In this document: piece by piece, positions 7,102 to 63,449 of the stretch | Position numbering within the stretch: the stretch's first letter is position 1 | Layout: the number at the start of each line of letters is the position of its first letter | Source: a virus | Strand: one strand, 5' to 3' | Virus record (IMG/VR): IMGVR_UViG_3300032116_014939 | Coordinates: 178,065-242,064 of that record | Length of the DNA: 64,000 nucleotides | Notes under the pieces: model-generated | The model's input: only the letters and a program-made list of their open reading frames with translations | What the model was told of the DNA's origin: nothing | Database searches by the model: none | Translations under genes and position numbers: made by a program

Positions 7102-8607
7102 ATGTCAATACATCGTTCATATTTTAGTAGGAACAATACAATAATTTCAAATAGTTTTACCAACACTGGTAAATCACCTTATACGCAATTATATTTTGGT
7201 TCAGCATCTGATGTAATTGCGTCCCCTGGATTTAGTAGATTTATCTTTGATTTAGATTTATCATTACTTGTACAAAAAATCCAAGACGGAATAATATCAA
7301 CAGGATGTACAGGTTTTTCAGGTATCACTCATACATTAAAAATGACCAACACATCTTCTTTTGATAAAGATGGGTTAAGTAATGAATACACATCACAAGG
7401 AAGATTAAGAGCAACATCATTTGACTTAGTTTTATTTAGAATACCTCTTACTTCAGGTAATACAGGAACTGCTCAAACGTGGGATGAAGGTGTTGGATAT
7501 GATTACTATGATGTTCAACGTACTTTAAATTCAACTAATGGTTTATTATCACCAATAGCTTTACCACAAGATAAAGCATATTCTCAAAGACCTTCTAATT
7601 GGTATCAAACAACAACATTAGATAATTGGTCAACACCCGGAATATACAATAATACAAACACAGGAACAGGGTCAACAATTAATTATTCGGCGTTAACAAT
7701 TGTTGATACTCAACATTTTGAATTTGGGAATGAAGATATTGAGTTTGATATGACAAATGAAATCAATCGAATTCTTACCGGTACAACAACTGGGTCAACA
7801 GGATGGGGAGTTGCTTTTTTACCCGAATTAGAAAATTTAACAGGTTTAACTGAAAACTATTCAGTAGGATTTTTTACAAGGCATACCCAAACTTTCTACG
7901 AACCATTTCTTGAAACAAATTATAACGATTTAATACTTGATAATCGAAACGCTTTTTATTCTTACAACAATAATAAATTATACTTGTATTCTTACATAGG
8001 TGGTGTACCAACAAATTTGGATAATTTACCGATTGTTACCTTAGAAAATAATCAAGGTAACACTATTGGTACTTATACGGGGTGTCAAATTACTCAAGGT
8101 GTTTATGAAATAACAACTAATTCTGTTTCAGCAACAACACCTTGTATGTTTACAGATACTTGGTCAAATCTTTATTATAACGGTATACAAATACCTAATG
8201 TAGTTAATGATTTAACTGTTTTACCATACACTGGTTATTTTACTCTTGGGCCTAATAGTCAAGACCCTGAACTTTTTGGTTTTGATTTTTACGGTATTAA
8301 ACAAGATGAAAAAATATTAAATACTGATTTAAGAAAAGTTGGTGTTGTTGTTAAAAAAGCGTACACATCTAATCAAGTATTAACACCTGTAACTGTTTAT
8401 TACCGAGTTTATGTTAAAGAGGGTCAAACAGAAGTACAAGTTCAAGATTGGACACAAGTAAACAGAGCGTCAAATGAATATTATTTCATCTTTGATACAA
8501 GAGATAAAATACCTAATGAATATTCAATAGATATTAAAGTACTTACATCAGGTGAAGTAGATACTTATAAGAAAACACTAACATTCCAAATAGTTGATAA
8601 GAAATGA
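7102..8607 (+). CDS. Putative tail-associated virion protein with DNRLRE-like region
   Basis: A 501-residue Thr/Ser/Asn/Gly-rich, beta-dominated protein. Its first half resembles carbohydrate-binding DNRLRE-type modules: 'SFDLVLFRIPLTSGNTG', 'LDNWSTPGIYNN' and a late 'FFTRHTQTFYEPFLETNYND' segment where such modules carry F-x-P-x-L-E-V-x-Y. The C-terminal third has Ig-like beta strands. An adhesion or tail-surface role fits both the position after the baseplate-like gene and the composition. It overlaps the next start by 4 nt (ATGA). Confidence 0.5.
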   Translation: MSIHRSYFSRNNTIISNSFTNTGKSPYTQLYFGSASDVIASPGFSRFIFDLDLSLLVQKIQDGIISTGCTGFSGITHTLKMTNTSSFDKDGLSNEYTSQGRLRATSFDLVLFRIPLTSGNTGTAQTWDEGVGYDYYDVQRTLNSTNGLLSPIALPQDKAYSQRPSNWYQTTTLDNWSTPGIYNNTNTGTGSTINYSALTIVDTQHFEFGNEDIEFDMTNEINRILTGTTTGSTGWGVAFLPELENLTGLTENYSVGFFTRHTQTFYEPFLETNYNDLILDNRNAFYSYNNNKLYLYSYIGGVPTNLDNLPIVTLENNQGNTIGTYTGCQITQGVYEITTNSVSATTPCMFTDTWSNLYYNGIQIPNVVNDLTVLPYTGYFTLGPNSQDPELFGFDFYGIKQDEKILNTDLRKVGVVVKKAYTSNQVLTPVTVYYRVYVKEGQTEVQVQDWTQVNRASNEYYFIFDTRDKIPNEYSIDIKVLTSGEVDTYKKTLTFQIVDKK

Positions 8608-9122
8608 AAAAAATAAAATTAAAAGAAAACGAATATATTAAATTATTAAAATTTGTTTTATCCGAAGCCTTTACTCCTGGTGAAGATAAAATTGACGCAA
8701 TTTTAGATAAAATTAGTCAATCAGGTATGGAATCAATTACACCTGAAGAAAGAAAAACTCTTGAGAAATTTACTAAAGGTATTTCAATTGAAGACGAACC
8801 GTCATCTAAAGAAGATGCTATAACAAAGGCAGGTGGTTTTTGGTCTTTTGAATTTCCAGGAATGCCATCGTTTAAATTTAGATATGAGTCAACTGAAGAT
8901 AATGAGGATGAAAAAATACATACAGGGTATCTAACTGTTGATGATAGTGACTATTATGGTGAAATTTATTGTGACCCCGAAGGTAATTTTCAAACTTGTA
9001 TGTTTGAAAACACAACTGAAGGAACAAATGTATTTGAAGATTATGAAGGTTTAGAACATGATATTGAAGTGTTTTTAGATGTAGTCTGTAATGACCTAAA
9101 AGAAGATGATATGATAGCTTAA
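8604..9122 (+). CDS. Tagged putative packaged protein, 172 aa
   Basis: The N-terminus starts 'MKKIKLKENEYIKLLKFV' and reaches L-S-E at residues 19-21 followed by Ala. This matches the recurrent tag in this window and an (I/L)-x-E prohead-protease site. The rest is very acidic with a beta-rich centre ('GFWSFEFPGMPSFKFRYEST'). The inferred fate is packaging in the head and trimming to residue 22 onward. The enzymatic role, if any, is unknown. The gene is translationally coupled to the preceding structural gene. Confidence 0.6.
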   Translation: MKKIKLKENEYIKLLKFVLSEAFTPGEDKIDAILDKISQSGMESITPEERKTLEKFTKGISIEDEPSSKEDAITKAGGFWSFEFPGMPSFKFRYESTEDNEDEKIHTGYLTVDDSDYYGEIYCDPEGNFQTCMFENTTEGTNVFEDYEGLEHDIEVFLDVVCNDLKEDDMIA

Positions 9123-9123
9123 T

Positions 9124-9579
9124 ATGAAAAACTTAGACAATTTAATTAAACAAGTATTAAAAGAACAAAATGAAAGATATATGTTTTTCAGTAATTTAGA
9201 ACAAATGCACCGTCAATGTGAGATACTTTTATCTATACCTAAAGATGACGTTGAAAATATTTTAAACAATGGTCACGATTGGGCTCAAGACCACATTGCC
9301 GAATCTAAAAATAACTTAGACCAAGTATTTGATTTTATGATGAATGAAATCAAAGGTGATAAGTTTAGTTCTGATGATGCAGTTAAACCTCAAGAAGATA
9401 TCATGATGGAAGGTCGTAAAAAAGCAGGTACTAAACTTTGTGCACGTGGTAAATCGGCAGCTAAAGCTAAATTTGATGTTTACCCTTCAGCATATGCTAA
9501 TGGTTATGCGGTACAGGTATGTAAAGGTACAAAACCTGGTTTAGACGGAAAAAAACACTGTTCAGGGGCTTATTGTTAA
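9124..9579 (+). CDS. Tagged, C-terminally basic Cys-containing protein, 151 aa
   Basis: The N-terminus 'MKNLDNLIKQVLKEQNERY' carries a possible L-K-E/Q cleavage site at residue 14. The C-terminal ~55 residues are basic and Cys-containing, with 'FDVYPSAYANGYAVQVCKG'. That 'VYPSAYAN' motif recurs in small proteins of many phages and giant viruses (I associate it with DUF5872, from memory). A DNA-associated packaged role is inferred from the basic tail and tag. It lies 1 nt after the previous gene. Confidence 0.6.
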   Translation: MKNLDNLIKQVLKEQNERYMFFSNLEQMHRQCEILLSIPKDDVENILNNGHDWAQDHIAESKNNLDQVFDFMMNEIKGDKFSSDDAVKPQEDIMMEGRKKAGTKLCARGKSAAKAKFDVYPSAYANGYAVQVCKGTKPGLDGKKHCSGAYC

Positions 9580-9588
9580 CAAAACATT

Positions 9589-9618
9589 TTGAATTATTAA
9601 AAAAACATAGTATATTTG
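9589..9618 (+). promoter_or_regulatory. Host-type (Bacteroidota sigma-A) promoter
   Basis: TTG (9589-9591), 19 nt, then TATATTTG (9611-9618) is an exact fit to TTG-N19-TAnnTTTG. It drives the gene starting at 9638 with a short leader. Confidence 0.7.
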
Positions 9619-9637
9619 TAGTCAAATCATAAATGAC

Positions 9638-10042
9638 ATGACTATAATAAAAAAACTATGGGTTAAATATCGTCTATATCTACGTCGATTAGACCGAGAA
9701 AGTACCGAATTTGACATTTATATGTCTAACGTGAGGAAATGTTCCACCATATGTAGAAAACTCATTCATTCGGAGGATTCTGAACTCATAATCGCTCCAA
9801 TATCTGACAAAAAATATATCCGTAATGATAAATTAGGTATTTTTGTTACTATGGACGGTGGTCAAATAACTGTAACAAATCATACATACAGTTATTTTAT
9901 TAAATTAAGTAAAAGTCAATGGGATAAATTGGTTAATACATTCCGTAAAGAAATGGAACATAGAGCCATGGAGATTGAAAAAGAATTAGAAACTCAAATT
10001 AATCATTCTCTTGATAATATTTATAGTAAAATAAATCACTAA
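9638..10042 (+). CDS. Hypothetical protein, 134 aa
   Basis: A basic protein beginning 'MTIIKKLWVKYRLYLRRLDR' and ending in a long charged helix. No enzyme motif is visible. Unlike its structural neighbours it has its own strong host-type promoter (9589-9618), which suggests early expression. Family unknown. Confidence 0.65.
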   Translation: MTIIKKLWVKYRLYLRRLDRESTEFDIYMSNVRKCSTICRKLIHSEDSELIIAPISDKKYIRNDKLGIFVTMDGGQITVTNHTYSYFIKLSKSQWDKLVNTFRKEMEHRAMEIEKELETQINHSLDNIYSKINH

Positions 10043-10052
10043 TATTATTATA

Positions 10053-11589: not shown

Positions 11590-13440
11590 TTATCTTAATT
11601 CATTCAAATCGAATGTACGAACACCATCAACGATGATACGTCCATAGAAACGGTTGTTAACCATCTTCTTAGCGTAACGTGTCATAATACCCTTGATAGG
11701 AGTAAAGTTGAATGGGTTATACATTGTTGGAGTTAATTGTAATGGTACGTATGGAGCGTAGATATATCCAGTATCCAATAACGAAGTACCTTTGTGACCA
11801 ATCAACACAGTGTTTGGTGGGAAGTATGGGTCACGGTATACTTGGTAACGACCACTCAAAGTACCAACTCTTTCAATACCCATGTTGTATTGGTCTTGCT
11901 CAGGAGCCGCGTTTGATACGTGGAAGTATTCCAAGTCATCAAAGATAGCACTGATTTCAGAAGATACAACAATCCAGTTAGCTCCACCTCTTAAAGTAGA
12001 CTTATGGATTTGAGCTGAAATTTGGTTGATTGCAGTAATCAACGTTTGATTCCAGTCCTTTTGAGTGTAAGGAGTTGATTGGTTGTTCAGACGCTTCCAT
12101 CCGTTGTAATCCCAACGTAATGTCCAAGCCGCACCTTTACGTAAGTCACGTAAGATTTCACGGTCAATTTCAGCTGCCACTTGCTCAGATAATAAAGCTG
12201 TTAATTCAGCTTCAGCATCGATGTTGTGGAACGCTGCAACGTCTTGAGCAAGTTCTGGAGACCATTGTGCTCTTAACTTTCTTTCAGTCACAGAAACTGT
12301 TACTGATTGAAGGTCGAAAGAAACTTCACCAATTTTGTCTTCAAATTCTAACTCTTGGTAACGCTTCCAATATGCAGTAACTGCTGTGTTAGTTGTAACA
12401 CCCGTTAAAGTAGTTGTGAAAGTAGTTCCAGTGTAACCATCAGGAGTAGATGCTCCACAAGAGATACATGCTGGTGTTTGTAAATCAACTTCTAAGTAGA
12501 TAACACCATCAGCACTACATACATCATAGAACGAACCTCCATTTCCTGGAGTTGCTCCACCTGGCCATGTTGTAGTTTTGCTAGTACCATATTCAACAAT
12601 ACCTTTACCGTATTTTTGTGTAACAACACGGAATAAAAGTGGTGTAGAAGTAGTAACATTACCACCAGATGCGTTAATTCTTGCAGCTAATGCAGAAGTT
12701 GGTAATAAAGTTAAATCAGAAAGGAATGTTTCAGTATCCATTTCTTGTCCATCAGGGCCAATTAACTTACCGTCACCTACTGATGTGAAACCAGACATTA
12801 CTAAAAGTAATTTTCTGTATTCACCTGAACCATATCCAGATACTACTAATGAACCGTTTGACCAAACTACTTGGTTAGTTGCACCAGTAACCCAATACCA
12901 ACCACCTTTTGAATAATCAAAAAGACCTGATGGGTTTAAACCTGGTTCATTTCCTTCATAGAATAAATCATAAAGGTTCTTTGGATACGCAGTTGAATCA
13001 GTGTAACCAGCATTTGGGTCACCAGGATAGTTTCCAGGAGAACCTACAGGTGCTCTGTGTCCAGCTTCTCCTGAAGCTCCTTGTGTTGGAGTTGCTGCAG
13101 AATAACCTTGAATTTGAGGTACAAAGTAGAACAATTTACCGATTGGTAAGTTCATAGCTTGTACAGATACGATTTCGTTAGCTAATAATTTAGAGAACAC
13201 ACGTCTGATGATAGGGAATACCACAGTTTCGAATGAACCTGAATCAGCAGTTGAAGCCGCTTCGTTAATTAAGAATGATGCTTGGTTTTCATACAACTGA
13301 GCAACGTTTTCTTTTAGGTGGCCTCTAAGACCTTCAAGGAACCCTAATTTGTCCCATTTGTTTATAGTGTCTTCTTTGATAACTTTCAAGTGCTTAAGAC
13401 CGATGTTACCTACTAATCCACTTTCTAATAATGCTCCCAT
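11590..13440 (-). CDS. Major capsid protein (T4 gp23-like)
   Basis: This 616-residue protein is encoded in the head module beside scaffold and protease genes. Its N-terminal 60 residues are helical and end in 'SFLINE', followed by 'AASTADSGSF'. Cleavage after Glu60 by the prohead protease would match T4 gp23, which is cut after Glu65. Downstream segments 'FPIIRRVFSKLLANEIVSVQ' and 'DREILRDLRKGAAWTLRW' are typical of gp23-like HK97-fold capsid proteins. Codon choice is less AT-biased than that of neighbours (many GGT, GTA and CGT codons), as expected of a highly expressed gene. An insertion-like Gly/Thr-rich region occupies about residues 120-360. Confidence 0.88.
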   Translation of the reverse strand: MGALLESGLVGNIGLKHLKVIKEDTINKWDKLGFLEGLRGHLKENVAQLYENQASFLINEAASTADSGSFETVVFPIIRRVFSKLLANEIVSVQAMNLPIGKLFYFVPQIQGYSAATPTQGASGEAGHRAPVGSPGNYPGDPNAGYTDSTAYPKNLYDLFYEGNEPGLNPSGLFDYSKGGWYWVTGATNQVVWSNGSLVVSGYGSGEYRKLLLVMSGFTSVGDGKLIGPDGQEMDTETFLSDLTLLPTSALAARINASGGNVTTSTPLLFRVVTQKYGKGIVEYGTSKTTTWPGGATPGNGGSFYDVCSADGVIYLEVDLQTPACISCGASTPDGYTGTTFTTTLTGVTTNTAVTAYWKRYQELEFEDKIGEVSFDLQSVTVSVTERKLRAQWSPELAQDVAAFHNIDAEAELTALLSEQVAAEIDREILRDLRKGAAWTLRWDYNGWKRLNNQSTPYTQKDWNQTLITAINQISAQIHKSTLRGGANWIVVSSEISAIFDDLEYFHVSNAAPEQDQYNMGIERVGTLSGRYQVYRDPYFPPNTVLIGHKGTSLLDTGYIYAPYVPLQLTPTMYNPFNFTPIKGIMTRYAKKMVNNRFYGRIIVDGVRTFDLNELR

Positions 13441-13471: not shown

Positions 13472-14890
13472 TTATTTTATTATTTTTGACATAATGTCTT
13501 TCATTCTCAAGAATTGAGGATTTTCGTAAGTTTTTGATTCAATCAAATTCACAGCTGAACCTGATTGTGGAACTTTATCCATCACTCTTTCGATTGATTC
13601 TGTCATCGGAGCTTTAGTGGTAGCACCACCTAACTCGTCTTTTATTGTCTTATAAAGAGCTTTAGATTCTTTAAGAGTGTCTGCGGTATCAAATCTTCTT
13701 AAAATGTTAATCTTTTCTTGCTTTGACGTAGAGTGTTCTGTGAACAATCTTGTAGCGTATGCTAAATTTGAATTAAACACTGCAACTTCGTTAAGTTTGT
13801 CTCTAAACATATTTAGAGCCTTTCTGTATTCTTCATTTTTAGCTCTTAACATTTCAACTTCTTCCATAATTTCACGGCTTTCAAACGTTAAGTTTCTGTT
13901 AGGTGTAATACCCTTTCTTAAACCACGTCCTTTTTTAGAACCAAATCCGTAAGTACGAGCAGCTTCTTTAGCTTCTTCTTTTGTTCCGAATTTTTTAGGT
14001 CTATCCGTGTCCATTGAAGCTTCTTCTTTGAACTCAAATTTAGGTTTACCTGTACCTTTTGTAGGATTTGCGTGAGCTTTCTTTTCGTTAAAACCACCTT
14101 GTGTCTTTTTAACAACACCAGCAGTTTTAGCGTTACCCAATTTAACACCTTTACCAACTACAGCTTTAGTAGATTCAGTAAATACTTCTTCTTCAAGTTC
14201 GTATTCATCTTCTTCATAATCTAAACCATCGCCGTCTTCGTGTCCGTGTTCTCTTGAGTACTCACCTTTTTTGCTACCCCACATTTCATCCAACTCTTCT
14301 TCCTCTTCCTCTTCATTCATTTCAATTTCGTAAACGATTTCATCTAATTCTTCTTCCTCTTCTTCAGATTCCCAACCTTCATACTCTTCTTGTTCAGATT
14401 CAGTTTGAATAAGGTATTCATCTTCTTCATCTTTTAAATGAATAAAATCACCTTCTTTTTTAATTTCAAAACTGTCATCTGCACTCATTTGTTTAAAAGC
14501 TTTAAGGACATCTTCCATAGAACTGTCAGTTAAATCAGTAACTTCCATAGAATTAAATTCATCTTCACCACCCATATCAGATAAATCTGTCATGTCAAAT
14601 TCCTCTTCAGAATCTTCGTCTTCTTCAGTTCCAAATTCGTCTTCTTCCTCTTCAGATTCTTCATCTTCAGATTCAAATTCGTTTTCTTCTTCCTCAGAAT
14701 CTTCAAATTCTAATTCGTCTTCAACTTCAAATTCATCTTCTTCAGCCTCATTTTTCATAGACTCTTTTACTAATTCGCTAATTTCTTCTTTCATTGTAGA
14801 ATGAAGTATTTCTTTTGCGTTTTCATTGATAGCTTCTTCCAAATTTTGTATTTGGATTAACGCTTCTTCAACTAAGTTTTTTTCTGCCAT
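13472..14890 (-). CDS. Acidic prohead scaffold/core protein (gp22-like)
   Basis: A 472-residue protein whose residues ~45-235 are extremely rich in Glu and Asp with long acidic runs; the C-terminal half is helical and charged. It lies between the capsid and protease genes, the position of the T4 core genes. Its N-terminus 'LEEAINE' offers an I-N-E cleavage site. Scaffolds of this type are assembled inside the prohead and degraded by the prohead protease. The composition and location support the role; sequence similarity to gp22 is not directly visible. A TATTTAT motif precedes it. Confidence 0.7.
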   Translation of the reverse strand: MAEKNLVEEALIQIQNLEEAINENAKEILHSTMKEEISELVKESMKNEAEEDEFEVEDELEFEDSEEEENEFESEDEESEEEEDEFGTEEDEDSEEEFDMTDLSDMGGEDEFNSMEVTDLTDSSMEDVLKAFKQMSADDSFEIKKEGDFIHLKDEEDEYLIQTESEQEEYEGWESEEEEEELDEIVYEIEMNEEEEEEELDEMWGSKKGEYSREHGHEDGDGLDYEEDEYELEEEVFTESTKAVVGKGVKLGNAKTAGVVKKTQGGFNEKKAHANPTKGTGKPKFEFKEEASMDTDRPKKFGTKEEAKEAARTYGFGSKKGRGLRKGITPNRNLTFESREIMEEVEMLRAKNEEYRKALNMFRDKLNEVAVFNSNLAYATRLFTEHSTSKQEKINILRRFDTADTLKESKALYKTIKDELGGATTKAPMTESIERVMDKVPQSGSAVNLIESKTYENPQFLRMKDIMSKIIK

Positions 14891-15227: not shown

Positions 15228-15947
15228 TTATTTTTTTAAATAATCGGAAAGTCTTCCCATTAAATCAAGCGATTTGTTAACTGTTCTTGCAGCTTTCATT
15301 TCGTTTTCTTCTTGTAGGTTCTCTTCAAACGCAAATCTTCCATCAGGTTCAGTAAATAAATAAGCTCCTGGTGTTGACGGTGAAGATACTAAGTCAAAAC
15401 AAATTAATTCAAAATCATCTTGTACTTCATTTTGGTCACCTACTTTTTTTAAAGAACCTACCCCTCTTGATGATATACCTAACGTTACACCTAATCTTAA
15501 TAGGTTTGCTGCTTGGTCACCCTTTGTTGACACAATACCTCTTTCATGGAACCCTGGTGAGGTTAGAAGTAATAACTTACCTAATAGAACATTACCATCC
15601 CACCACATCTCTGTAATCATGTGTGATACTCTATCCAAATCTATTAACGAAGATTCAGGATGGTTAAGTTCAGATAAGGCAGTTTTTTTACCTATATAAT
15701 TTTTTATATAATTTTCAGATTCTCTCTTTAAAATTCTTTCAGGATATATTCTACCATTTCTATTTGGTGTGTTATATTTTTGTAGAACGGCATAAAACTC
15801 AAATGGTTTTGAATAATCTTTAAAGTCCCTACTTTCTTGTAAGAATGTTTGATTATGTTTTTCTGTTGGGGAAACATATCCCGCATCCATCTCAATTAAA
15901 ATACCTCTTCCTGTCTCTCTTGGGCCTAATATTTTATAATTTTGCAT
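15228..15947 (-). CDS. Prohead core serine protease (T4 gp21-like, S21 family)
   Basis: This 239-residue protein has the herpesvirus-assemblin-like phage protease pattern. A conserved N-terminal strand 'FYAVLQKYNTPNRNGRIYP' is followed by the catalytic His in 'ELNHPES' (His96) and the catalytic Ser in 'GISSRGVGS' (Ser159/160). T4 gp21 cuts after (L/I)-x-E in scaffold, capsid and internal proteins. Its own 'FLQES' and 'NLQEE' segments could be self-cleavage sites. It is the inferred processing enzyme for the many tagged proteins of this window. A TATTTAT motif lies 16 nt upstream. Confidence 0.88.
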   Translation of the reverse strand: MQNYKILGPRETGRGILIEMDAGYVSPTEKHNQTFLQESRDFKDYSKPFEFYAVLQKYNTPNRNGRIYPERILKRESENYIKNYIGKKTALSELNHPESSLIDLDRVSHMITEMWWDGNVLLGKLLLLTSPGFHERGIVSTKGDQAANLLRLGVTLGISSRGVGSLKKVGDQNEVQDDFELICFDLVSSPSTPGAYLFTEPDGRFAFEENLQEENEMKAARTVNKSLDLMGRLSDYLKK

Positions 15948-17420: not shown

Positions 17421-19268
17421 TCAATCCTTTAATAGTTTATCCAATTGATTTCCAATTTCACCCAATGATTCTTGAACTCTACCTAAATCAATCAGTTCAT
17501 CTTCATTTAACATTCCACTATTTTCTAATAAAATATTAAGTCCTGAATTACGTTTTTCTATGTTTTCAGGAACTGTACCCGCACCTTCTGCCGGTGGTGG
17601 GGCAGGACTTTCAGATGGTGGTGCAGCACTTTCGGAACCACCTCCAAATCCTTCCATTCCTCCTAATCCTGATTCAGGTGGTGCTCCCCCACCTTCTGAT
17701 GGGGCACCTGCTGGTTCACCCTCTTTTTTACCATATAATTTATCTAAATTATCAAATAAACCTGTATGAGTAATAACTTCAGCAGTTTTCTTAAGTTCTT
17801 CACCAACGGCTCTTTCAATACGTTGTTGTTGTAAGTCAAGTTTAATTTCTTCATCAGAAAACCCAAGAATGTGTTTCTTAGCCCATGACATAGACACTGG
17901 TGCAATTCCACTACCAGGGTCAGCAACTAAATCCTTATATAATAAAATCTTTTCTTTCCATACATCAATTTTCATCAAATCTGCCTGAGTTGACGGATTT
18001 GTTAAACTAAGTTGGAAATTTGATATTTCATCTTCAAAACCTAAAATGAATAAATGTATAATAGCAATTTTATTCAATTCAGAAATCATATTTTTTTGAA
18101 TTCTGTTAATAGTTCTTGCAAAACGAATATCTTGTAGTGATAAATTTTTACCGTCACCAACAGTTTCTTCAAAACCTAAAAACGCTTTAGGTACTCTTAA
18201 AGCTGTTAATAATTTCTTTTGGATATATTCGATATCCGCAATTTCAGATAGGTTCTGTGCCCCCGCTAATGTCTCAATAGGACTTGCCTGTGCGGTATCT
18301 CTAACAGGAACGAAATAATCTTGGTCAACCGCCATCTGATTAAATCTCATATCTACATTACCCGATTTTGGGTCAACAGTTTGACTTCTCTTAAATTTAT
18401 TCGCAAATCTTTGGATATATGGTTCAACATCCGCATCATCCATATTTCCAACAAACACTTTAAATACACGTCTTTCAGGAGCTCTTGATGTTCTGTAAAT
18501 TAACATCGCATCTTCTGATAACAATAATTGTTTCCAAATACGACGAGCTTTTTCTAACATAGATGTACCATAAGGTAATCTTCTATCATCACCTAATAAT
18601 CTGAAGTGAGCAATTTCCCAAGTATTAAATTCTAAATCTTTCTGTTTCCATTTAAACTTTAAATGTTTTTTTTCAGGATTAGTAGTTGAATCAGTTGAAT
18701 GTGAACCCATACCCGCTTCCAATCGTTCAATTTCAATAATTGGTAACTGCATACATCCTACAACACCTTTTTCAGGGTCTAATTTTATATAAACAAAGTT
18801 ATCACCATACTTACATGTGTTTCTTGTCCACATGGGTAAGTTAGTGTTAATATCTAAAGCGTTATTAAACAAATCCCCAAGAATTGATTTAATTCTTGAC
18901 GATTCAGAATAAATTTGTAACATGTAACCATCTTGATTGATGGTGGTAGATTCCTCAGCGTAAATGTCTAAAGCAGCACCAATTTCAGGTGTAAACTCCA
19001 TTGACTCATAGTCATAAAAAGATGCTAAACGGGTTGGTTCGTAATAAACTGCTTGAGTATATAGATTATTTTCAATTCGACCCCATTGGTTCGCCAAATA
19101 ATATGTTTGTTGAGCTTGAAGTTTCTCTCTTTCGTATTCGGCCTTTGAGGTTGTTTTTAATAACTCGCTTTTATCATATTTGTATGTAGGGTAATCCTGA
19201 CCTAATAATGAATTAGGGCCAAAGGTCTGTGATAACCTTTGCCATACCGTTAGTTTATTTTCACTCAT
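17421..19268 (-). CDS. Portal vertex protein (T4 gp20-like)
   Basis: A 615-residue protein with the gp20 pattern. It has 'FTPEIGAALDIYAEESTT' near residue 90, 'LPMWTRNTCKYGDNFVYIK' around 145-165, 'HFRLLGDDRRLPYGTSMLEK' near 220, and 'ERRVFKVFVGNM' with 'LRVPKAFLGFEE' later. The C-terminal ~100 residues are Pro/Gly/Ala/Ser-rich and low in complexity before a final helix. The portal forms the dodecameric DNA entry ring and terminase dock. The gene order portal - small ORF - terminase is typical of a packaging module. Confidence 0.88.
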   Translation of the reverse strand: MSENKLTVWQRLSQTFGPNSLLGQDYPTYKYDKSELLKTTSKAEYEREKLQAQQTYYLANQWGRIENNLYTQAVYYEPTRLASFYDYESMEFTPEIGAALDIYAEESTTINQDGYMLQIYSESSRIKSILGDLFNNALDINTNLPMWTRNTCKYGDNFVYIKLDPEKGVVGCMQLPIIEIERLEAGMGSHSTDSTTNPEKKHLKFKWKQKDLEFNTWEIAHFRLLGDDRRLPYGTSMLEKARRIWKQLLLSEDAMLIYRTSRAPERRVFKVFVGNMDDADVEPYIQRFANKFKRSQTVDPKSGNVDMRFNQMAVDQDYFVPVRDTAQASPIETLAGAQNLSEIADIEYIQKKLLTALRVPKAFLGFEETVGDGKNLSLQDIRFARTINRIQKNMISELNKIAIIHLFILGFEDEISNFQLSLTNPSTQADLMKIDVWKEKILLYKDLVADPGSGIAPVSMSWAKKHILGFSDEEIKLDLQQQRIERAVGEELKKTAEVITHTGLFDNLDKLYGKKEGEPAGAPSEGGGAPPESGLGGMEGFGGGSESAAPPSESPAPPPAEGAGTVPENIEKRNSGLNILLENSGMLNEDELIDLGRVQESLGEIGNQLDKLLKD

Positions 19269-19429: not shown

Positions 19430-21175
19430 TTATCTCCTTCCTCCGAATAACCATAAATAGTTTTCATAATCACTTTTTGTGGCTTCTCGTTTAAAGTTTT
19501 CTTGATGTTGAGGGACTACCGGGTCCATGAATTGTTTTCGATTATATTCATTTGTATTAACAGTCCATGAATTAATCATTGCCTTTGTTTGATTTGTTAC
19601 CTTATTAAGTGACGTAAATGATGATTCACCAACATAAAGAGCCATAGCTACTGACATAATTAAATCATCGTGTTGTCCTTTTTGGTGGTCAGGTCTTCCA
19701 TTTATATAAATAAATGTGTTCATTTCATTTAACAATCTACTTGAATTTATTTTAAAACCATGTCTTAAATATTCTTCAAAGGTTGCAATAATTTGAACTC
19801 TCTTAGCATTAAAGTTAATTCCTGGTATTTTTTCAGTAGCCTTTGGGTCATATTTCCATTTATTTGAGATATCTACACCGTCAACGTACATATTCTTATA
19901 CCCTAACTCTCTAAGTCTTAAGGACGTTGTAACACCCATACCACCTGTAATATCTATTACAATAAATGCGTTATACATATTACCCCATTTAAAACATATT
20001 TCCGCTAATGTGTCAGGAGGAAGTTTTCCAACATACTCAGCAACTTGTTCTCTTGTATCAAAATCAATGATTTGGAATGTTGAGAAGTCCTCACTATCCC
20101 CACGAGATACGTCAACACCCATAATGTATTTTTTACCCATTTCAGGTTCTTTCCAAATCCAAAGTCCACCACCCATCATCTTTGTGGATGGTTCTTTAAC
20201 CATATTAATTCTTAAATTTTCCAATAAATCCGAATCAAATACGTTATCCCCCGAACCAAGAAATGCACATTCTAATTCCTGACTAACTTTACGTTTGTCA
20301 TATTTAAGTTTTTTAACCATTGATTCATACCAAGAAGAACTTGGTTTATATCCCTGAGCAATCAATTGTCTTATTTCATCAAAGTTTTTTTCTTTATTGT
20401 TATAGTCAATAATTTCAACAGTTTGATATTCATTACGATTTAAATAATAATGAATAATATCTTTTACATTTATTAATGATAAATCTTTAGCATATCTTGG
20501 GTCTTTCCACCAAACCATTTCGGAAACTTTAAATTCATTCATTCCCTTTAACGCTTGGTCATATATACCATAATAAATTGGGTCATATCCATTTGGTGTT
20601 GATACAACTATAACCTTACCACCTGTGGATAAGGATGCCATACAAGCCGCCCAAAAATCATCATCGGCATCAATATACGCCGCCTCGTCAAATATCAAGA
20701 TTGTTGGTGTATAACCACGAAGAGCATCTTTAGATGTCGCAACTGCTTTAACTTCACATCCATTTGTTAATTTAAAATGTCTTTGTGAGTTTTTTTCAGC
20801 AGAAAAACCAACACCTACCCAACTAGGCCATTGTTCAGTAAATCCTCTAATTTTATTTGCAACCTCAACTGCTGTATCTAATTTGTTAGCAATAACCAAT
20901 ATTTTTTCAGGGCTATTCTTTTTAGCAAAAACAAGTTTTTTTGATGACCAAGCGGCTGTCACAGTTGATACACCTGCCTGTCGATACTTTAATGCAATAT
21001 TTTCGTTATAGTTTTCATAATCTTCAACCAAACTAACTTGGTCAGGAAATAATTCTAATGGGACATACTTTTGAACAGTGTTGTCATATGTCTGTAAATA
21101 AGTTTTAAGGGCGTATGGTGTTGATTTCATACACTTGGCATACTCCATTAAAACTGCTTCTCTTGATAAACTCAT
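19430..21175 (-). CDS. Terminase large subunit (gp17-like packaging ATPase/nuclease)
   Basis: In this 581-residue protein the ATPase domain shows an adenine-binding 'LFPDQ', the Walker A-like 'YRQAGVST' (about residues 64-71) in which the usual Lys is Val, and Walker B with catalytic Glu in 'TILIFDEAAY'. It also has a coupling motif 'VVSTPNG'. The nuclease domain has 'GVDVSRGDSEDFSTF', 'IVIDITGG' and the final acidic 'HDDLIMSVAMA', matching the RNase H-like triad. It pumps DNA through the portal and cuts concatemers. The non-Lys P-loop is seen in other large terminases. A TATTTAT motif lies 5 nt before the ATG. Confidence 0.9.
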   Translation of the reverse strand: MSLSREAVLMEYAKCMKSTPYALKTYLQTYDNTVQKYVPLELFPDQVSLVEDYENYNENIALKYRQAGVSTVTAAWSSKKLVFAKKNSPEKILVIANKLDTAVEVANKIRGFTEQWPSWVGVGFSAEKNSQRHFKLTNGCEVKAVATSKDALRGYTPTILIFDEAAYIDADDDFWAACMASLSTGGKVIVVSTPNGYDPIYYGIYDQALKGMNEFKVSEMVWWKDPRYAKDLSLINVKDIIHYYLNRNEYQTVEIIDYNNKEKNFDEIRQLIAQGYKPSSSWYESMVKKLKYDKRKVSQELECAFLGSGDNVFDSDLLENLRINMVKEPSTKMMGGGLWIWKEPEMGKKYIMGVDVSRGDSEDFSTFQIIDFDTREQVAEYVGKLPPDTLAEICFKWGNMYNAFIVIDITGGMGVTTSLRLRELGYKNMYVDGVDISNKWKYDPKATEKIPGINFNAKRVQIIATFEEYLRHGFKINSSRLLNEMNTFIYINGRPDHQKGQHDDLIMSVAMALYVGESSFTSLNKVTNQTKAMINSWTVNTNEYNRKQFMDPVVPQHQENFKREATKSDYENYLWLFGGRR

Positions 21176-22536: not shown

Positions 22537-22537
22537 C

Positions 22538-43105: not shown

Positions 43106-43705
43106 TTACCAAAATCCTGGATAAGTTTTACCACCCCACAAATAACCAAAACGGTTTAAACGACATGCCCAATAACCAGCCGTTAATCTATCTTTTTTCT
43201 TAGCACACTGATGTCTTGCAGCAAATGATTTACGTGCTTTAGGATTGGATACCTTAGCTGTTAATCCACCATGAACATCACCAAATGAAATTTTCTTAAC
43301 TCTACCTGTTGATGGGTTTTTAACATAAACAACATATTTCTTACCACCACCAGTATTTCTTCTTGGTTTACCAAGTTCAACTTTCTTTCCGTTATATTCA
43401 GCTTCAGAAATAAATGATTCTTCCATCGGAGTATCCAAGTAAACAACTCTACCACTTGATAATTTAACCTGTGTTCCAAAATCAGATTCAACAAGTTCAA
43501 CATCATCTTCACTTAATTCAACCATTCCCTCGTAATATAACTCACGAGCTTCTTGAATAACATTAAAGAATTCCTCAGAACCAAATCTAAAGATATTATC
43601 ATTTAATGGAACTTCATTTGTTATATGATAATTAAGGTGTTCTGAGATAAGTGGTTTTTCCACCGATTCTGTAAGAACTTTTTTGATAAGTTTTTTGATA
43701 TTCAT
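43106..43705 (-). CDS. Tagged basic DNA-associated-type protein, 199 aa
   Basis: The leader 'MNIKKLIKKVLTESVEKPLI' has L-T-E/S (residue 13) and then L-I-S-E/H sites. The C-terminal ~90 residues are basic: 'KKYVVYVKNPSTGRVKKISF' followed by 'NPKARKSFAARHQCAKKKDR' and 'AGYWACRLNRFGYLWGG'. This F-x-x-R-H-x-C ... Y-W-x-C-R module recurs in marine phages and giant viruses (from memory). A packaged DNA-binding protein is inferred. It overlaps the next upstream gene by 4 nt. Confidence 0.65.
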   Translation of the reverse strand: MNIKKLIKKVLTESVEKPLISEHLNYHITNEVPLNDNIFRFGSEEFFNVIQEARELYYEGMVELSEDDVELVESDFGTQVKLSSGRVVYLDTPMEESFISEAEYNGKKVELGKPRRNTGGGKKYVVYVKNPSTGRVKKISFGDVHGGLTAKVSNPKARKSFAARHQCAKKKDRLTAGYWACRLNRFGYLWGGKTYPGFW

Positions 43706-44553: not shown

Positions 44554-44580
44554 GTTACCATAATTAATGGTAACTTATTT
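44548..44580. terminator. Bidirectional terminator between convergent genes
   Basis: The inverted repeat AAATAAGTTACCAT / ATGGTAACTTATTT covers the stop of the CAP-like gene and precedes the stop of the OmpA-like gene. Confidence 0.7.
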
Positions 44581-49012: not shown

Positions 49013-49326
49013 TAAACCTGAATAGTTCTTTGCGGTCTGTCATCACCAAAGTCAGGACAGAAATAAACATTGTTACCATCGTGGTAAATTGTTCCACCAA
49101 CTCCATTAGGAATTTTGTGTTTTTCATGGAATTTATCATCCAAATCTATTTGGTGATTTCCATCATGAATAACAAAACATAAGTTTTCAAAACCACACTT
49201 ATATTGTTGGTCTTTGTTTTTATGTTTCATAAACTCGTCAAAAGACATTACGTATCTTGCATCTTCGTTAAGGTATCTTTTAACTATAAATTCTAATTGA
49301 CTTTCTGTAATAATAAACTTTTTCAT
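49009..49326 (-). CDS. Tagged hypothetical protein, 105 aa
   Basis: The tag 'MKKFIITESQLEFIVKRYL' ends in L-N-E/D at residues 19-21. The remainder is a small His/Asp-rich domain ('GFENLCFVIHDGNHQIDLDD', 'YHDGNNVYFCPDFGDDRP') that could bind metal. A TATTTAT motif lies 5 nt before the ATG in a string identical to the terminase promoter. Probably packaged cargo. Confidence 0.65.
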   Translation of the reverse strand: MKKFIITESQLEFIVKRYLNEDARYVMSFDEFMKHKNKDQQYKCGFENLCFVIHDGNHQIDLDDKFHEKHKIPNGVGGTIYHDGNNVYFCPDFGDDRPQRTIQVY

Positions 49327-52430: not shown

Positions 52431-52847
52431 TTAATATCTTCTTGTTTTTCTTCTGATATTTTCAGCCATTGGCTTCATTGGTTCTTCATCTTCAATATCC
52501 ATATTATCAACTTCAACTTCAGAATCCATTTCTTCACCTGAATTCATTTTATTACTTTCATAATCTTGGATGATAGACTTAAGTTCCATCGCCTCTTGTT
52601 CTTTTCCTTCAGTTTTTCTTAAATGACGATAAAAATCCTTAAGATAATCCCATCCTGCTATACCTAAAAGTGCAATAGTTGTACCAACCATTGTAGCAAT
52701 CGCCCCACCTGTACTCATAGCCTCAGGATTAAAGAAGTTTTCAACCGCTTCATTAACTCCATTTTTTTTATTTCTTTTTGTTTCTTTAACTACTGTTTTA
52801 ATTAAGTTAGTTAATTCTGATTCTGACAATCTTACTACTTTTTTCAT
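52431..52847 (-). CDS. Tagged single-span membrane protein, 138 aa
   Basis: The tag 'MKKVVRLSESELTNLIKTVV' followed by K-E/T ends at residue 22. Residues ~50-72 form one membrane segment ('TGGAIATMVGTTIALLGIAG'), then basic and acidic stretches. Virion-packaged membrane protein inferred from the tag; function unknown. No TATTTAT motif in its short A/T-only leader. Confidence 0.62.
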   Translation of the reverse strand: MKKVVRLSESELTNLIKTVVKETKRNKKNGVNEAVENFFNPEAMSTGGAIATMVGTTIALLGIAGWDYLKDFYRHLRKTEGKEQEAMELKSIIQDYESNKMNSGEEMDSEVEVDNMDIEDEEPMKPMAENIRRKTRRY

Positions 52848-52865: not shown

Positions 52866-53441
52866 TTATCTTGGAGCACCTCTATATGATGCATTTGGTT
52901 TAATTGGTACTACATAATCAGGGGTTCCTTTATAAGTACAAAACGGTCTTGATGTAATTACTTTTGCTAAATCGTTATTTAGATAATCTTCTTTAATTCC
53001 ACCTTTTCTTTTGAAAGGTTCACCAATAGCACCTAATCCTTTTTCAAATGCCGAGTTACAATTCCATCTGAATTTAATAGGTTCACTATATCTTTTTTTA
53101 TCTCTATTTAAAAAAGTACCTGTATAACCCTCAACGTCCGAACCTGTAATATCTTGGACTGTAAATTCAACTGTTGGTAAATTATTAATCGTTGTTATTC
53201 CAACTTGTTTTATTTTATAGTTTTCAGAAGTTCTTTTACCTTTAAACATCCCACTTTCACCTGTATATTTGTTTAAACCATAAGCATTAAACATAAGAAC
53301 TTCAGAACCTGTAAGACCTGATACTTCCTTACGAAATTGTTCAGGTGTTTTTGCAGTTAAATCATCGTTTTCTTTTATAACTTTTTTAATTAAATTAATA
53401 AGTTCATTTTCTGTTAATCTAATAACTTTTTCTTTTTTCAT
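52866..53441 (-). CDS. Tagged hypothetical protein, 191 aa
   Basis: The tag 'MKKEKVIRLTENELINLIKK' followed by V-I-K-E/N ends at residue 24. The rest is a basic, beta-rich domain ('LPTVEFTVQDITGSDVEGYT', 'EPIKFRWNCNSAFEKGLGAI') ending 'VPIKPNASYRGAPR'. Probably packaged; no enzyme motif recognised. A TATTTAT motif lies 21 nt upstream. Confidence 0.62.
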   Translation of the reverse strand: MKKEKVIRLTENELINLIKKVIKENDDLTAKTPEQFRKEVSGLTGSEVLMFNAYGLNKYTGESGMFKGKRTSENYKIKQVGITTINNLPTVEFTVQDITGSDVEGYTGTFLNRDKKRYSEPIKFRWNCNSAFEKGLGAIGEPFKRKGGIKEDYLNNDLAKVITSRPFCTYKGTPDYVVPIKPNASYRGAPR

Positions 53442-55114: not shown

Positions 55115-55573
55115 TTACTTCAAGTTAGTATTGTCTTCGACAAAATTATCCACTTTATCTTTAAAAATCATATATGCCAAAGTTTGAACTCCAATAGCAG
55201 TTAAAAACTTTGGTATGTCTTTTTTAAATTCATTAGCTTGTTGTTTTAAACTTCTTTTTACTTTTTTAAGTAATTTTTTTAACCATTTAGGATTGGTTTG
55301 TTTCAATTCCAAAAAGTAAGCTTTAACTTCATCTTTATCTTTACCAACTAAAGAATTAATTGCGTTATCAATATTATCTTCAGGAGCGGTTTCCATCTTA
55401 GCTTCAAAACTTTTTTTATCAAGAGTTGATTCTGTAATATATGGTTTAACATCACCTGATTTTGTTTCAATCAATTTTTTAAAATTTTCAATAACAATTT
55501 TTTTACCACCTTCGTGTTGTTCACGAATTGAGTTTTTTACTTCTTCCGATAAATCGTTTAATAAATGTTTCAT
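55115..55573 (-). CDS. Helical basic protein with shared leader, 152 aa
   Basis: The leader 'DLSEEVKNSIREQHEGGKKI' resembles the start of the zinc-ribbon protein at 40342-40803. A Lys-rich helical body follows, with a weak hydrophobic C-terminal helix ('KFLTAIGVQTLAYMIF'). Perhaps a packaged membrane-associated protein. A TATTTAT motif lies 12 nt upstream. Confidence 0.58.
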   Translation of the reverse strand: MKHLLNDLSEEVKNSIREQHEGGKKIVIENFKKLIETKSGDVKPYITESTLDKKSFEAKMETAPEDNIDNAINSLVGKDKDEVKAYFLELKQTNPKWLKKLLKKVKRSLKQQANEFKKDIPKFLTAIGVQTLAYMIFKDKVDNFVEDNTNLK

Positions 55574-57410: not shown

Positions 57411-57719
57411 CTAAAACTGCATGTTAATTCTCTTAATCTCTATTCCAAACTTATCCGTATAATATTTCTCAATACCTTCACCTACCGAATTTCCAAATAA
57501 AACACGCATCTTTTCAAAAAAAGAATAATCAATCCATAATGTTCCATTAAGATTTCTGTGGGCAATTCTTACAGGGTGACCATCACTATCAATATCTTTC
57601 CTACTAAAGAAATGAATATACCCATCCTCATCAACAGCCATTTCAACATCACCATAGGTGGCGTCCATGTACTTCTTAATAACCTCATTTAACTTACTCT
57701 CGGTGATAATATATTTCAT
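57411..57719 (-). CDS. Tagged hypothetical protein, 102 aa
   Basis: The start 'MKYIITESKLNEVIKKYMDA' is the Tyr variant of the recurrent tag. The body is a small alpha/beta domain ('EMAVDEDGYIHFFSRKDIDS'). The promoter string GGTATTTATTGTAATATG is identical to that of the gene at 60311, so the two genes share both tag and promoter. Unknown function. Confidence 0.62.
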   Translation of the reverse strand: MKYIITESKLNEVIKKYMDATYGDVEMAVDEDGYIHFFSRKDIDSDGHPVRIAHRNLNGTLWIDYSFFEKMRVLFGNSVGEGIEKYYTDKFGIEIKRINMQF

Positions 57720-59168: not shown

Positions 59169-59552
59169 TTATATTTCTTTTATAAATTGACCAACACCTA
59201 CACTACGAAAACCTTTACTTCTTAATTTGTTTTTAACTCTAACCGCATCTTCTCTTTCAAAACCAGCATCGGCAAAATCTAAAGGTGCCCCCACATCAAC
59301 TATAACGTATCTACTAGTAATACCAAATTTAACACAATCAGTATCAATATATTGTCTTAAATAATTACGGATTTCGTCATAAAAATTATTAGATATGGTT
59401 TTATTATTAGAATCAACGTCATCATTAGGTGTTGGGTTATTTTTGGGGACAATACGTTTGGCTGGACGTTTTTTTTCAGCTTCTGATAATTTAACAACCC
59501 TTTTAATCAATCTTGTTAAATCAGATTCAGTTAATCTTACAATTTTTTTCAT
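59169..59552 (-). CDS. Tagged paralogue A, 127 aa
   Basis: The tag 'MKKIVRLTESDLTRLIKRVV' followed by K-L-S-E/A ends at residue 24, then a basic, disordered linker. The C-terminal ~65 residues ('YVIVDVGAPLDFADAGFERE', 'RSKGFRSVGVGQFIKEI') match the next gene's C-terminus (V-D-V-G-A-P-L-D-F). The two adjacent genes are tandem paralogues with diverged linkers. The domain is unknown; packaged cargo inferred. Confidence 0.65.
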   Translation of the reverse strand: MKKIVRLTESDLTRLIKRVVKLSEAEKKRPAKRIVPKNNPTPNDDVDSNNKTISNNFYDEIRNYLRQYIDTDCVKFGITSRYVIVDVGAPLDFADAGFEREDAVRVKNKLRSKGFRSVGVGQFIKEI

Positions 59553-59557: not shown

Positions 59558-59929
59558 TTAAAATTCGCTTGTTCTAACTTTTTTCGCATATTGACCTACA
59601 CCCCAACTATTAAAACCATGTTTTCTTAATTTATCTTTAGCTTTGTTTGCCTCACTTCTTGAAAATCCACAATCTTCAAAATCTAATGGAGCCCCAACAT
59701 CAAATACCAAATAATCTGCTAAATACTTATATGTAATACAACCCGCTTTAAGATACGGTTCCATAGCGTTAAACACCGGTTGTGTTTCAATATCTTTATC
59801 TGATGGTTTAGAATTAAATCCACTATAAAATGTGTCTTTTATCTTATCTTCCCAACTATCATTTTCTTTGATGACTTTCTTAACTATTTTAACCAAATCA
59901 GACTCGGTTAATCTTATAACTTTTTTCAT
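59558..59929 (-). CDS. Tagged paralogue B, 123 aa
   Basis: The tag 'MKKVIRLTESDLVKIVKKVI' followed by K-E/N ends at residue 22. The C-terminal domain ('YLVFDVGAPLDFEDCGFSRS', 'KHGFNSWGVGQYAKKV') is the paralogue of that at 59169-59552. A TATTTAT motif lies 14 nt upstream, and 5 bp separate the two genes, so they are probably co-transcribed. Confidence 0.65.
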   Translation of the reverse strand: MKKVIRLTESDLVKIVKKVIKENDSWEDKIKDTFYSGFNSKPSDKDIETQPVFNAMEPYLKAGCITYKYLADYLVFDVGAPLDFEDCGFSRSEANKAKDKLRKHGFNSWGVGQYAKKVRTSEF

Positions 59930-60000: not shown

Positions 60001-60311
60001 TATACAAAAATAACATCCCACACCGCAGTAGAATCTCCGTTTTTGTCTTTAGGAAATAATAATGTAAACATGGTTCCAATCTTTTCTTCAATATCTGAAC
60101 CCTCGTCATAAGCATGATAACTACGACCACCTGTATTTAGTATAATTTGATATACAGGATATGTCTCATTTCTAAATTTCCAATTTTTTGTTTTTATCTC
60201 AACATCACCATTAAACCATTCGTATTCAGATAATAAGTTCTCAACATAATCCTTTAAGAAATTAACTTTCCTCATTTGTAAATTCTGAGACTCGGTGATA
60301 ATATATTTCAT
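60000..60311 (-). CDS. Tagged hypothetical protein, 103 aa
   Basis: The start 'MKYIITESQNLQMRKVNFLK' is the Tyr variant of the tag. The body 'WFNGDVEIKTKNWKFRNETY', then 'ILNTGGRSYHAYDEGSDIEE', is a small beta domain. Its promoter string equals that of the gene at 57719. Unknown function. Confidence 0.62.
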   Translation of the reverse strand: MKYIITESQNLQMRKVNFLKDYVENLLSEYEWFNGDVEIKTKNWKFRNETYPVYQIILNTGGRSYHAYDEGSDIEEKIGTMFTLLFPKDKNGDSTAVWDVIFV

Positions 60312-60383: not shown

Positions 60384-60764
60384 TCACCAACGTTTGGGAT
60401 TAAACCATCCAAGATGTCTGCCGGTTTCCTTAAAGCTTTGACGATTATCATCATCTTCCTCATCTTCTTTACCAAGAAGAACATAATTCAAATCGTCAAG
60501 AACTGTATACTTATCAACCTCCTCATCATTAACATTCAAAAAAATATCACGTCCAAGATATTTCACCAACGGGGTACCTCCTTCAACATACTCATTGTAT
60601 AACTCAATAATACTCTGTGGTGAAGATGTTTCACCAACTTTATTTCTAACACCCTTAAATCCAGCAGATATGAAAATATCCTTTTCTTCATGTCTATTTT
60701 CCTTAACAACTCTTTTAACTATTTTAACCAAATCTGATTCAGTTAATGTTATAACTTTTTTCAT
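60384..60764 (-). CDS. Tagged hypothetical protein, 126 aa
   Basis: The tag 'MKKVITLTESDLVKIVKRVV' followed by K-E/N ends at residue 22. An acidic body with 'DIFISAGFKGVRNKVGETSS' and a C-terminal Asp/Glu run before 'RHLGWFNPKRW'. Unknown domain. A TATTTAT motif lies 14 nt upstream. Confidence 0.62.
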   Translation of the reverse strand: MKKVITLTESDLVKIVKRVVKENRHEEKDIFISAGFKGVRNKVGETSSPQSIIELYNEYVEGGTPLVKYLGRDIFLNVNDEEVDKYTVLDDLNYVLLGKEDEEDDDNRQSFKETGRHLGWFNPKRW

Positions 60765-60837: not shown

Positions 60838-61140
60838 TTATTTTTTCTTGTCTGTACGTTTAACTTCAACGTTATTAATAAAAACCTTTGTCGGGGGATT
60901 ATTTCTTGTCGATTCAAAATATTCATCAAAGGCGGTCCAGAACATATTTGGTTCTAAATTATATGTATTTAACATTTCGTTACCATGTATTGACAATCGA
61001 CTAACATCTTCAGAGTTGTAATATCTTTTTATTCTTTCTTTAAGAGCATCCATCTTCTGTTTCGGATATGTTTGCTCCGCAATAACTCGTTTAATTATAC
61101 GAGTCAAATCTGATTCTGTAAGTCTAATTATCTTTTTCAT
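60838..61140 (-). CDS. Tagged hypothetical protein, 100 aa
   Basis: The tag 'MKKIIRLTESDLTRIIKRVI' followed by A-E/Q ends at residue 22, the clearest tag/cut-site pair in the window. The body is helical ('ALKERIKRYYNSEDVSRLSI') and ends in a basic tail 'VEVKRTDKKK'. A TATTTAT motif lies 5 nt upstream. Unknown function. Confidence 0.65.
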   Translation of the reverse strand: MKKIIRLTESDLTRIIKRVIAEQTYPKQKMDALKERIKRYYNSEDVSRLSIHGNEMLNTYNLEPNMFWTAFDEYFESTRNNPPTKVFINNVEVKRTDKKK

Positions 61141-62825: not shown

Positions 62826-62839
62826 ATATATTTTTTTTA

Positions 62840-62847
62840 CAAAGATA
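62840..62847 (-). promoter_or_regulatory. Host-type -7 element TATCTTTG
   Basis: Complement of CAAAGATA, 14 nt before the ATG at 62825; a TTG (complement of CAA near 62851) is too close to be the -33, so support is partial. Confidence 0.4.
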
Positions 62848-62874
62848 AAACAATAATACTAATTTACCAAAAAA

Positions 62875-63123
62875 TTATTTAACATCAGAAAATGAATCCA
62901 CATTAATAAACTCAGATTCCAAATGACCAATGATATCCCTAAGAGTCTGACCCTGTAACTCAGGGGTTTCCCTACTACGAATAGATAATGAAATAGCCCC
63001 ACACAATACAGATATAATATCATTAATATTCATACCCTTCTTGGCCATTATGTCATAAAAAAATTTATTGTCCCTTAATGTTACATCCACAGTAACTGAT
63101 AATTTTTCTTCTTCCATTTCCAT
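62875..63123 (-). CDS. Hypothetical protein, 82 aa
   Basis: Acidic start 'MEMEEEKLSVTVDVTLRDNK' followed by helices ('NDIISVLCGAISLSIRSRET'). A second ATG at 63117 is possible. Unknown family. Confidence 0.58.
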   Translation of the reverse strand: MEMEEEKLSVTVDVTLRDNKFFYDIMAKKGMNINDIISVLCGAISLSIRSRETPELQGQTLRDIIGHLESEFINVDSFSDVK

Positions 63124-63154
63124 ATATCAATAATAAGAAAAAAAATGAAATAAA

Positions 63155-63209
63155 AAACCCCTCCGTTAAAGGAAGGGTCAGTCCAACAATACTATCATTG
63201 GAGAGGTTA
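63155..63209 (-). terminator. Possible long-stem terminator
   Basis: On the minus strand AACCTCTCC pairs with GGAGGGGTT across a ~36-nt loop and is followed by TTTTTTATTTC, just past the stop of the tagged gene at 63207. Confidence 0.4.
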
Positions 63210-63449
63210 ATAATCTTCAGTACCCATAAATGCTTCGTCCCCAATATCACCTATAGTATCAATAATATCAGTTAAAACTCTTACGACACCTTCCGTTCCG
63301 TATGTTTTATAAACAGGTTGTAAAATATCCATAATTTGGACATGTACTGACTCAGTATCATCATGAAATGAATCTTCATCTCTTTCTTCATTAATAACCC
63401 TTTTAATTATATTGGTTAATTCTTTTTCTGTTAATCTAATCTTTTTCAT
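63207..63449 (-). CDS. Tagged hypothetical protein, 80 aa
   Basis: From ATG 63449 the tag 'MKKIRLTEKELTNIIKRVIN' followed by E/E ends at residue 21. The short acidic body ('VRVLTDIIDTIGDIGDEAFM') shows no known fold. The frame is open upstream to 63476, but that extension would destroy the tag. A TATTTAT motif lies 16 nt upstream. Confidence 0.62.
   Translation of the reverse strand: MKKIRLTEKELTNIIKRVINEERDEDSFHDDTESVHVQIMDILQPVYKTYGTEGVVRVLTDIIDTIGDIGDEAFMGTEDY

Follow-up and report, generated by a model that had tools for sequence, protein, structure and literature searches.

Interchangeable N-terminal leaders with a common [ILV]-x-E end as probable prohead-protease propeptides in uncultured giant T4-like phages

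We analysed a 64,000-nucleotide stretch of the virus record IMGVR_UViG_3300032116_014939 (hereafter the window, numbered from its first base), which covers bases 178,065-242,064 of the 242,064-base record. The window encodes proteins that begin with a similar leader, or tag, of 22 residues (class A), and it also carries a T4-type head gene cluster, located on the minus strand at 10-26 kb. The cluster contains genes for the terminase, the portal, a gp21-type protease, a large acidic protein and a gp23-type capsid protein (Table 1). The acidic protein, which is 472 amino acids (aa) long, is a putative scaffold by its position. The protease was matched by the Peptidase_S77 profile (E 8.9e-28) and shares 34% identity with T4 gp21. 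Its catalytic His and Ser motifs, ELNHP and GISSRG, are intact in comparison with T4; the crystallised T4 protein (5jbl) has Ala at both places. On the profile match and the catalytic His and Ser, we assign it to the Peptidase_S77 (gp21 prohead protease) family.

In T4, the cut by gp21 falls after [LI]-x-E, and sites of this kind are where the targeting sequences are taken off (PMC9026906). The predicted capsid cut of the window reads SFLINE/AASTADSG. In 30 distinct relatives the residues before the cut are LINE (29 of 30) or LIYE (1 of 30), followed by A, S or T, and they align with FLTE/A of T4.

An earlier note on this DNA, made from the sequence alone, had listed ten near-identical N-termini, and all ten coordinates are indeed start codons of open frames with the described beginnings. 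Eight of them scored 52-59 bits with a position weight matrix (PWM) built from these same eight, and 38-53 bits when each was left out in turn, far above the best of 20 first-order Markov shuffles of the window (14.4 bits). The remaining two are less alike: the tag at 8604 (16 bits) is a divergent class A copy, and that at 49326 (11 bits) was placed by hidden Markov model (HMM) in the MKYIITES class. The 53441 protein begins MKKEKV. Among the Tyr-containing and looser forms in the note, 57719 and 60311 belong to class B and 42225 is class B-like, but 55062 scored under the threshold. The residues after the tag share nothing among the window proteins, as had been stated. The E that ends the ten tags is followed by Q (two), A (two), N (three), D, T or E (one each); the 59552 tag reads ...RVVKLSE/A, with its [L]-x-E two residues further on. 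No class A copies were found in the rest of the record (1-178 kb). Besides those listed in the note, the window has leaders of further types at 9124, 21241-22545, 43705 and 55573. The leader-type genes 8604, 9124 and 10053 (8604-10298, plus strand) directly follow a gene for a 501-aa protein, on the strand opposite to the head cluster; homologues of the 8604 and 9124 proteins are tagged in relatives.

Table 1. Positions of leaders and head genes in the window (a slash marks the proposed cut).
Feature	Positions	Strand	Basis
Class A leader MKKIVRLTENDLVAIIQKVISE/Q, on 445-aa protein (44564-45901)	45836..45901	minus	PWM, HMM, leave-one-out
Class A leader MKKVVRLSESELTNLIKTVVKE/T, on 138-aa protein	52782..52847	minus	PWM, HMM, leave-one-out
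Class A leader MKKEKVIRLTENELINLIKKVIKE/N, on 191-aa protein	53370..53441	minus	PWM, HMM, leave-one-out
Class A leader MKKIVRLTESDLTRLIKRVVKLSE/A, on 127-aa protein	59481..59552	minus	PWM, HMM
Class A leader MKKVIRLTESDLVKIVKKVIKE/N, on 123-aa protein	59864..59929	minus	PWM, HMM, leave-one-out
Class A leader MKKVITLTESDLVKIVKRVVKE/N, on 126-aa protein	60699..60764	minus	PWM, AlphaFold model
Class A leader MKKIIRLTESDLTRIIKRVIAE/Q, on 100-aa protein	61075..61140	minus	PWM, HMM, leave-one-out
Class A leader MKKIRLTEKELTNIIKRVINE/E, on 80-aa protein	63387..63449	minus	PWM, HMM, leave-one-out
Divergent class A leader MKKIKLKENEYIKLLKFVLSE/A, on 172-aa protein	8604..8666	plus	homologues with canonical class A leaders
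Leader MKKFIITESQLEFIVKRYLNE/D, between class A and class B	49264..49326	minus	HMM
Short leader MKNLDNLIKQVLKE/Q	9124..9165	plus	homologues in L070/L378 and L157 with class A leaders
Class B leader MKYIITE/S, inferred boundary	57699..57719	minus	HMM
Class B leader MKYIITE/S, inferred boundary	60291..60311	minus	HMM
Class B-like leader MKYLIKE/S, inferred boundary	42225..42245	plus	HMM
Class C-type long leader MKHLLNDLSEEVKNSIREQH...KPYITE/S	55430..55573	minus	blind comparison, HMM
Class D1 leader MNIKKLIKKVLTE/S, on 199-aa protein	43667..43705	minus	HMM
Leader MKKEKLVKRLVSRLNE/AP of 434-aa head-cluster protein (21241-22545), adjoining terminase gene	22489..22536	minus	relatives' alignment
Major capsid protein, gp23-type	11590..13440	minus	profile/sequence match
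LINE of predicted capsid cut	13261..13272	minus	alignment with T4 SFLTE/AEIGG
Acidic 472-aa protein in gp22 scaffold place	13472..14890	minus	position only
gp21-type prohead protease (Peptidase_S77)	15228..15947	minus	profile match, T4 gp21 comparison
Portal protein, gp20-type	17421..19268	minus	
Terminase large subunit	19430..21175	minus	

Relatives were searched for with a degenerate DNA pattern that fixes the first 12 residues of the tag, so conservation there is partly due to selection; the last ten residues, including the E22 end, lay outside the pattern. At least 119 stretches in viral contigs carried the pattern, and about 85,000 bacterial and archaeal genomes gave one match, in a bacterial metagenome-assembled genome. 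This genome (L363, DFKH01000024.1, named Alphaproteobacteria UBA3650) has several tagged genes on small contigs, which are probably phage contamination. The loci retrieved contained 243 distinct class A proteins, which formed 181 families by their mature parts, and each tag-bearing contig of 240-412 kb had 4-17 class A tags. Short tblastn queries found no tag in phage isolates, a test possibly limited by masking or query length; its absence from isolates rests on four whole records (T4, RM378, pT24 and Mel-JY01) in which the HMM detected no class A tag.

An alignment of 150 representatives gave the class A consensus MKKIIRLTESDLxRIVKRVIxE, in which conservation stops at E22 and nothing is conserved beyond. 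At this end P3 is always I, L or V, P2 is variable, P1 is E in 109 of 113 and P1' is variable. E22 was missing in 15 of the 243 copies; nearly all of these reach an [ILVMF]-x-E a few residues further on, mostly through a four-residue helix extension. By these alignments the conserved feature is the [ILV]-x-E end and not its distance from the start. The codons at conserved tag residues vary among relatives, indicating that the peptide is conserved and not only the DNA, as a recent duplication would have it.

We also ran a blind comparison of 2,701 frames over their first 45 residues, keeping only pairs with unrelated remainders. Five phage leader types were obtained, A (185 families), B (86), C (55), D (36) and E (11), together some 370 families; there may be more types. 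Class B reads MKYIITESQ and class E MNRSYSKIRHIQESNLKLEKRFLNE/Q; examples are MKKLLDISSEERNRILEMHQEATRKNYLTE/A for class C, and MKKLIRHTLKE/E and MKNLNENIQRIKQMMNTINE/S for class D. Sec signal peptides fell into small groups of their own, showing that real targeting sequences are detected in this way; the tag itself does not have the hydrophobic core after a basic start of a Sec signal peptide, its helix being amphipathic with no hydrophobic stretch. A DnaJ protein grouped in class C was rejected as a false member. An [ILV]-x-E end, in many cases with Q next, is found in all types but the short MKYIITES type. The motif phi-phi-x-E lies within residues 6-45 in 91% of A, 84% of C, 96% of D1 and 100% of E, compared with 29% of other proteins, and it occurs further down the same leader proteins in 10-23%. 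Q follows the E in about 40% of A, C and E and is outside the 12 commonest post-E residues of the background. The leader-class HMMs had no match in T4 and none in reversed sequences.

Homologous mature proteins can stand behind different leaders, and the exchange point is the proposed site. In the 434-aa head-cluster protein, E16-A17-P18 is invariant in 20 relatives and the preceding residues are variable: the leaders are unrelated and include KRLVSRLNE/AP, RRRLNE/AP and, in L395, the class A sequence MKKIKLTEKDLTRIVKRIVNE/AP. Homologues of the 9124 protein have MKNLDNLIKQVLKE/Q, MEKLIKKILKE/E or a class A leader. Several leaders were found with the MFFSNLEQM family and two with pterin dehydratase. 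Two proteins (L106 and L195) share 98% identity in everything that follows the site, one with a class A leader and the other with a class E leader. A tagged protein in L107 has an internal VNE/NRHEEKD junction, and the same domain is found behind the leader end VVKE/NRHEEKD in the window 60764 protein; some products may thus be cut more than once. The junction, KRKVNE/NRHEEKD, is present in the tagged proteins L107:6622-7194 (minus strand) and L176:5940-6533 (plus strand), and by this sequence such proteins are perhaps polyproteins cut at several sites.

AlphaFold models place a hinge at the leader end. The 60764 protein has a leader helix at 9-22, a stretch with a predicted local distance difference test score (pLDDT) <50 at 21-25, and a confidently folded domain at 30-100. 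In the 434-aa protein the leader helix spans 3-15, pLDDT is <50 at 12-22, and a confident folded domain follows. Foldseek searches of both models against PDB found no relatives.

Pfam and PHROG scans of the cargo detected few known domains, and only a handful of Pfam matches came from 150 class A proteins. Cargo under other leader types includes polyphosphate kinase 2, pterin dehydratase, VanY carboxypeptidase and lysozyme-like proteins. The motif TATTTAT, reported in the earlier note for nearly all listed genes, stands ahead of 11 of the 14, at a distance of at most about 45 bp; the other three closely follow another gene. In the whole record it precedes 15 of 23 leader genes and about 30% of all larger frames; in a set of 218 tagged genes it precedes 154. 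It also occurs at the terminase, protease and portal-side genes and probably represents the late promoter. Three late genes (59977, 60815 and 61812, minus strand) are preceded by a C-rich intergenic repeat, CCGTTGTTCCAATCCCCCCTACCCCCTTTTTT. Between leader genes lie two adjacent genes for Cys-rich, possibly HNH-type, proteins on the minus strand, 57735-58271 (CNCC...CKLC) and 58277-59116 (CYVCKE...CKEC). Elsewhere (L015-L016, 60-100 kb of the record) are giant frames of 1,400-2,600 codons, probably tail fibre genes, one with long GSSGTSG repeats; the antisense frames are open too.

Peptidase_S77 was found in 23 of 40 tagged contigs, including 9 of 9 at >=240 kb and 15 of 17 at >=100 kb. The tagged contigs without it also have no intact gp23 gene, and so look like fragments without the head cluster. 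In G044 the gp23 gene is cut by the contig end, and a weak gp23 match in G037, which is tagged and has no protease, was not confirmed by blastp. The earlier note had taken the tag in genomes without a gp21-like protease as a refutation of its reading; every tagged contig whose capsid cluster is intact has the protease, a weak test because the base rate of the protease in large phages is high. The association is compatible with a functional link and is weak evidence for it.

The leaders, their modularity, their fixed [ILV]-x-E end, the protease and the matching capsid site can be read directly from the DNA. The claim that the leaders are cleaved by the capsid protease is strongly supported by the gp21-type protease, the conserved LINE/A, the convergent [ILV]-x-E ends, the leader exchange and the model hinge. 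From these sequences and models, the leaders are very probably propeptides cut by the prohead protease. By analogy with T4, the proteins that carry them are likely packaged into the capsid; whether these are then injected we consider an even question.

We infer docking to the core, cleavage, packaging and ejection as follows. The tags would be N-terminal propeptides of proteins built into the prohead core. The amphipathic basic helix LTESDLxxIVKRVIxE would dock a newly made late protein on the scaffold core, and the gp21-type protease would cut after [ILV]-x-E at the leader end. Cleavage at head maturation would free the folded cargo within the capsid, from which it could be ejected along with the DNA. 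Several unrelated leader types would be served by one protease, and cargo genes would swap leaders. The core of this proposal, propeptides released after [ILV]-x-E and cargo freed inside the capsid, is in our judgement quite probable.

Several observations weigh against it. Some cargo under non-A leaders resembles lysozyme, carboxypeptidase or peptidoglycan-binding proteins and could be tail or lysis proteins, which is the main doubt about a uniform capsid targeting. T4 internal proteins are predominantly basic; the mature parts here are not (95 basic versus 121 acidic). P1' of the leaders is mostly Q, S, N, E or D, unlike the A of the capsid site, and for class B no clear [ILV]-x-E end can be made out other than ITE/S. 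The classes were clustered on N-termini that contain the site, which introduces a mild circularity. Large AT-rich viral contigs often have Peptidase_S77 (8 of 16 controls); tags were present in 5 of 8 of these controls with the protease and 2 of 8 without, and one S77-positive contig of 371 kb has no class A tag.

The leaders may be cut by the prohead protease and yet be mere scaffold or core anchors, of proteins that build or stabilise the head and are no injected effectors. The leader on the 434-aa head-cluster protein and the comparable early sites in T4 gp22, gp67 and gp68 agree with this, but the small cargo families, unrelated to one another and at least 181 in number, differ between close relatives and look accessory and not structural, and some cargo are enzymes; we regard this explanation as doubtful. 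An uncut docking helix, which places proteins in the virion or another phage assembly and for which E22 is merely the helix end, is improbable. A typical helix-capping sequence (LTESDL) and the amphipathic nature of the helix speak for it, but the unrelated leader types have only the terminal [ILV]-x-E and the Q preference in common, leaders are exchanged exactly at the E, and the end matches the capsid site. Routing to the host membrane, a replication compartment or the tail, with any cleavage by another protease, would suit a basic amphipathic helix and the class C cargo that resembles peptidoglycan enzymes; it is still less probable given that Sec signal peptides separate out in the same blind comparison, that the head-cluster protein carries a leader, and that the leader end matches the capsid protease site. 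A nucleic-acid cassette of late promoter and start region, spread by recombination and with no protein function, would explain the TATTTAT motif and the exchange points at the tag end, but is hardly credible because residues are conserved though codons vary, the [ILV]-x-E end is kept despite the four-residue extension, and several unrelated sequences share that end.

Should the leaders prove to be capsid-targeting propeptides, one fate could be predicted for several hundred protein families that have no known relatives. The proteins that a phage injects would be readable from its genome and could be searched for early anti-defence and take-over factors, and new leader/protease pairs would be at hand for loading proteins into phage heads. 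The head contents and injected proteins of giant phages are mostly unknown, T4 supplying few examples. It may or may not hold, with about equal chances, that a large group of uncultured giant T4-like phages uses a modular loading code, in which at least five unrelated, interchangeable leader types are served by one prohead protease. Many fast-changing, mostly uncharacterised proteins per phage would then be headed for injection in sets listable from sequence, with some cargo made as polyproteins of several units, which are cleaved at the leader-end motif. Neither the motif RLTESDL nor a described system of this kind was found in the open-access literature.

Like the bS21-encoding freshwater Bacteroidetes phages (up to 331 kb), which are lake myoviruses with a single region for the TerL, portal, prohead protease and capsid genes, the phage studied here has its head genes clustered (PMC9723584). 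No leader system was found in the parts of that description available to us, and these phages are possible relatives. Like SPN3US and phiKZ with their head ejection proteins, the tagged phages would be giant phages that pack many proteins cut after a short Glu-ending motif (PMC10052503). The SPN3US propeptides are mostly 111-254 residues long, some being short (20 and 24 residues), and the accessible part of that account describes no shared leader for them, unlike here (PMC10052503). The T4 Alt, gp22, gp67, gp68, gp23 and gp24 propeptides, cut by gp21, resemble the leaders in the cut after [IL]-x-E, and the capsid protein is arranged alike; the T4 propeptides are protein-specific, whereas the leaders here are exchanged among proteins. 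A close likeness is to the capsid-targeting sequence of T4 IPI, IPII and IPIII, a leader common to proteins with unrelated mature parts and ending in [IL]-x-E at a gp21-type site (PMC9026906). IPII and IPIII begin MKTYQEFIAE/A and gp22 begins MLKEQLIAE/A. As in T4, gp20-, gp21- and gp23-type head genes are present, with a matching site in the capsid protein. Unlike the T4 sequence, the class A leader has 22 residues (T4, 10), several leader types exist, P1' is mostly Q, S or N (T4, A), and there are 4-17 class A copies per large genome, with at least 181 cargo families. No sequence homology to MKTYQEFIAE was detected, as no class HMM matched it and T4 has no tag. By analogy, the leaders are likely to work like the T4 capsid-targeting sequence, without being homologous to it in sequence.

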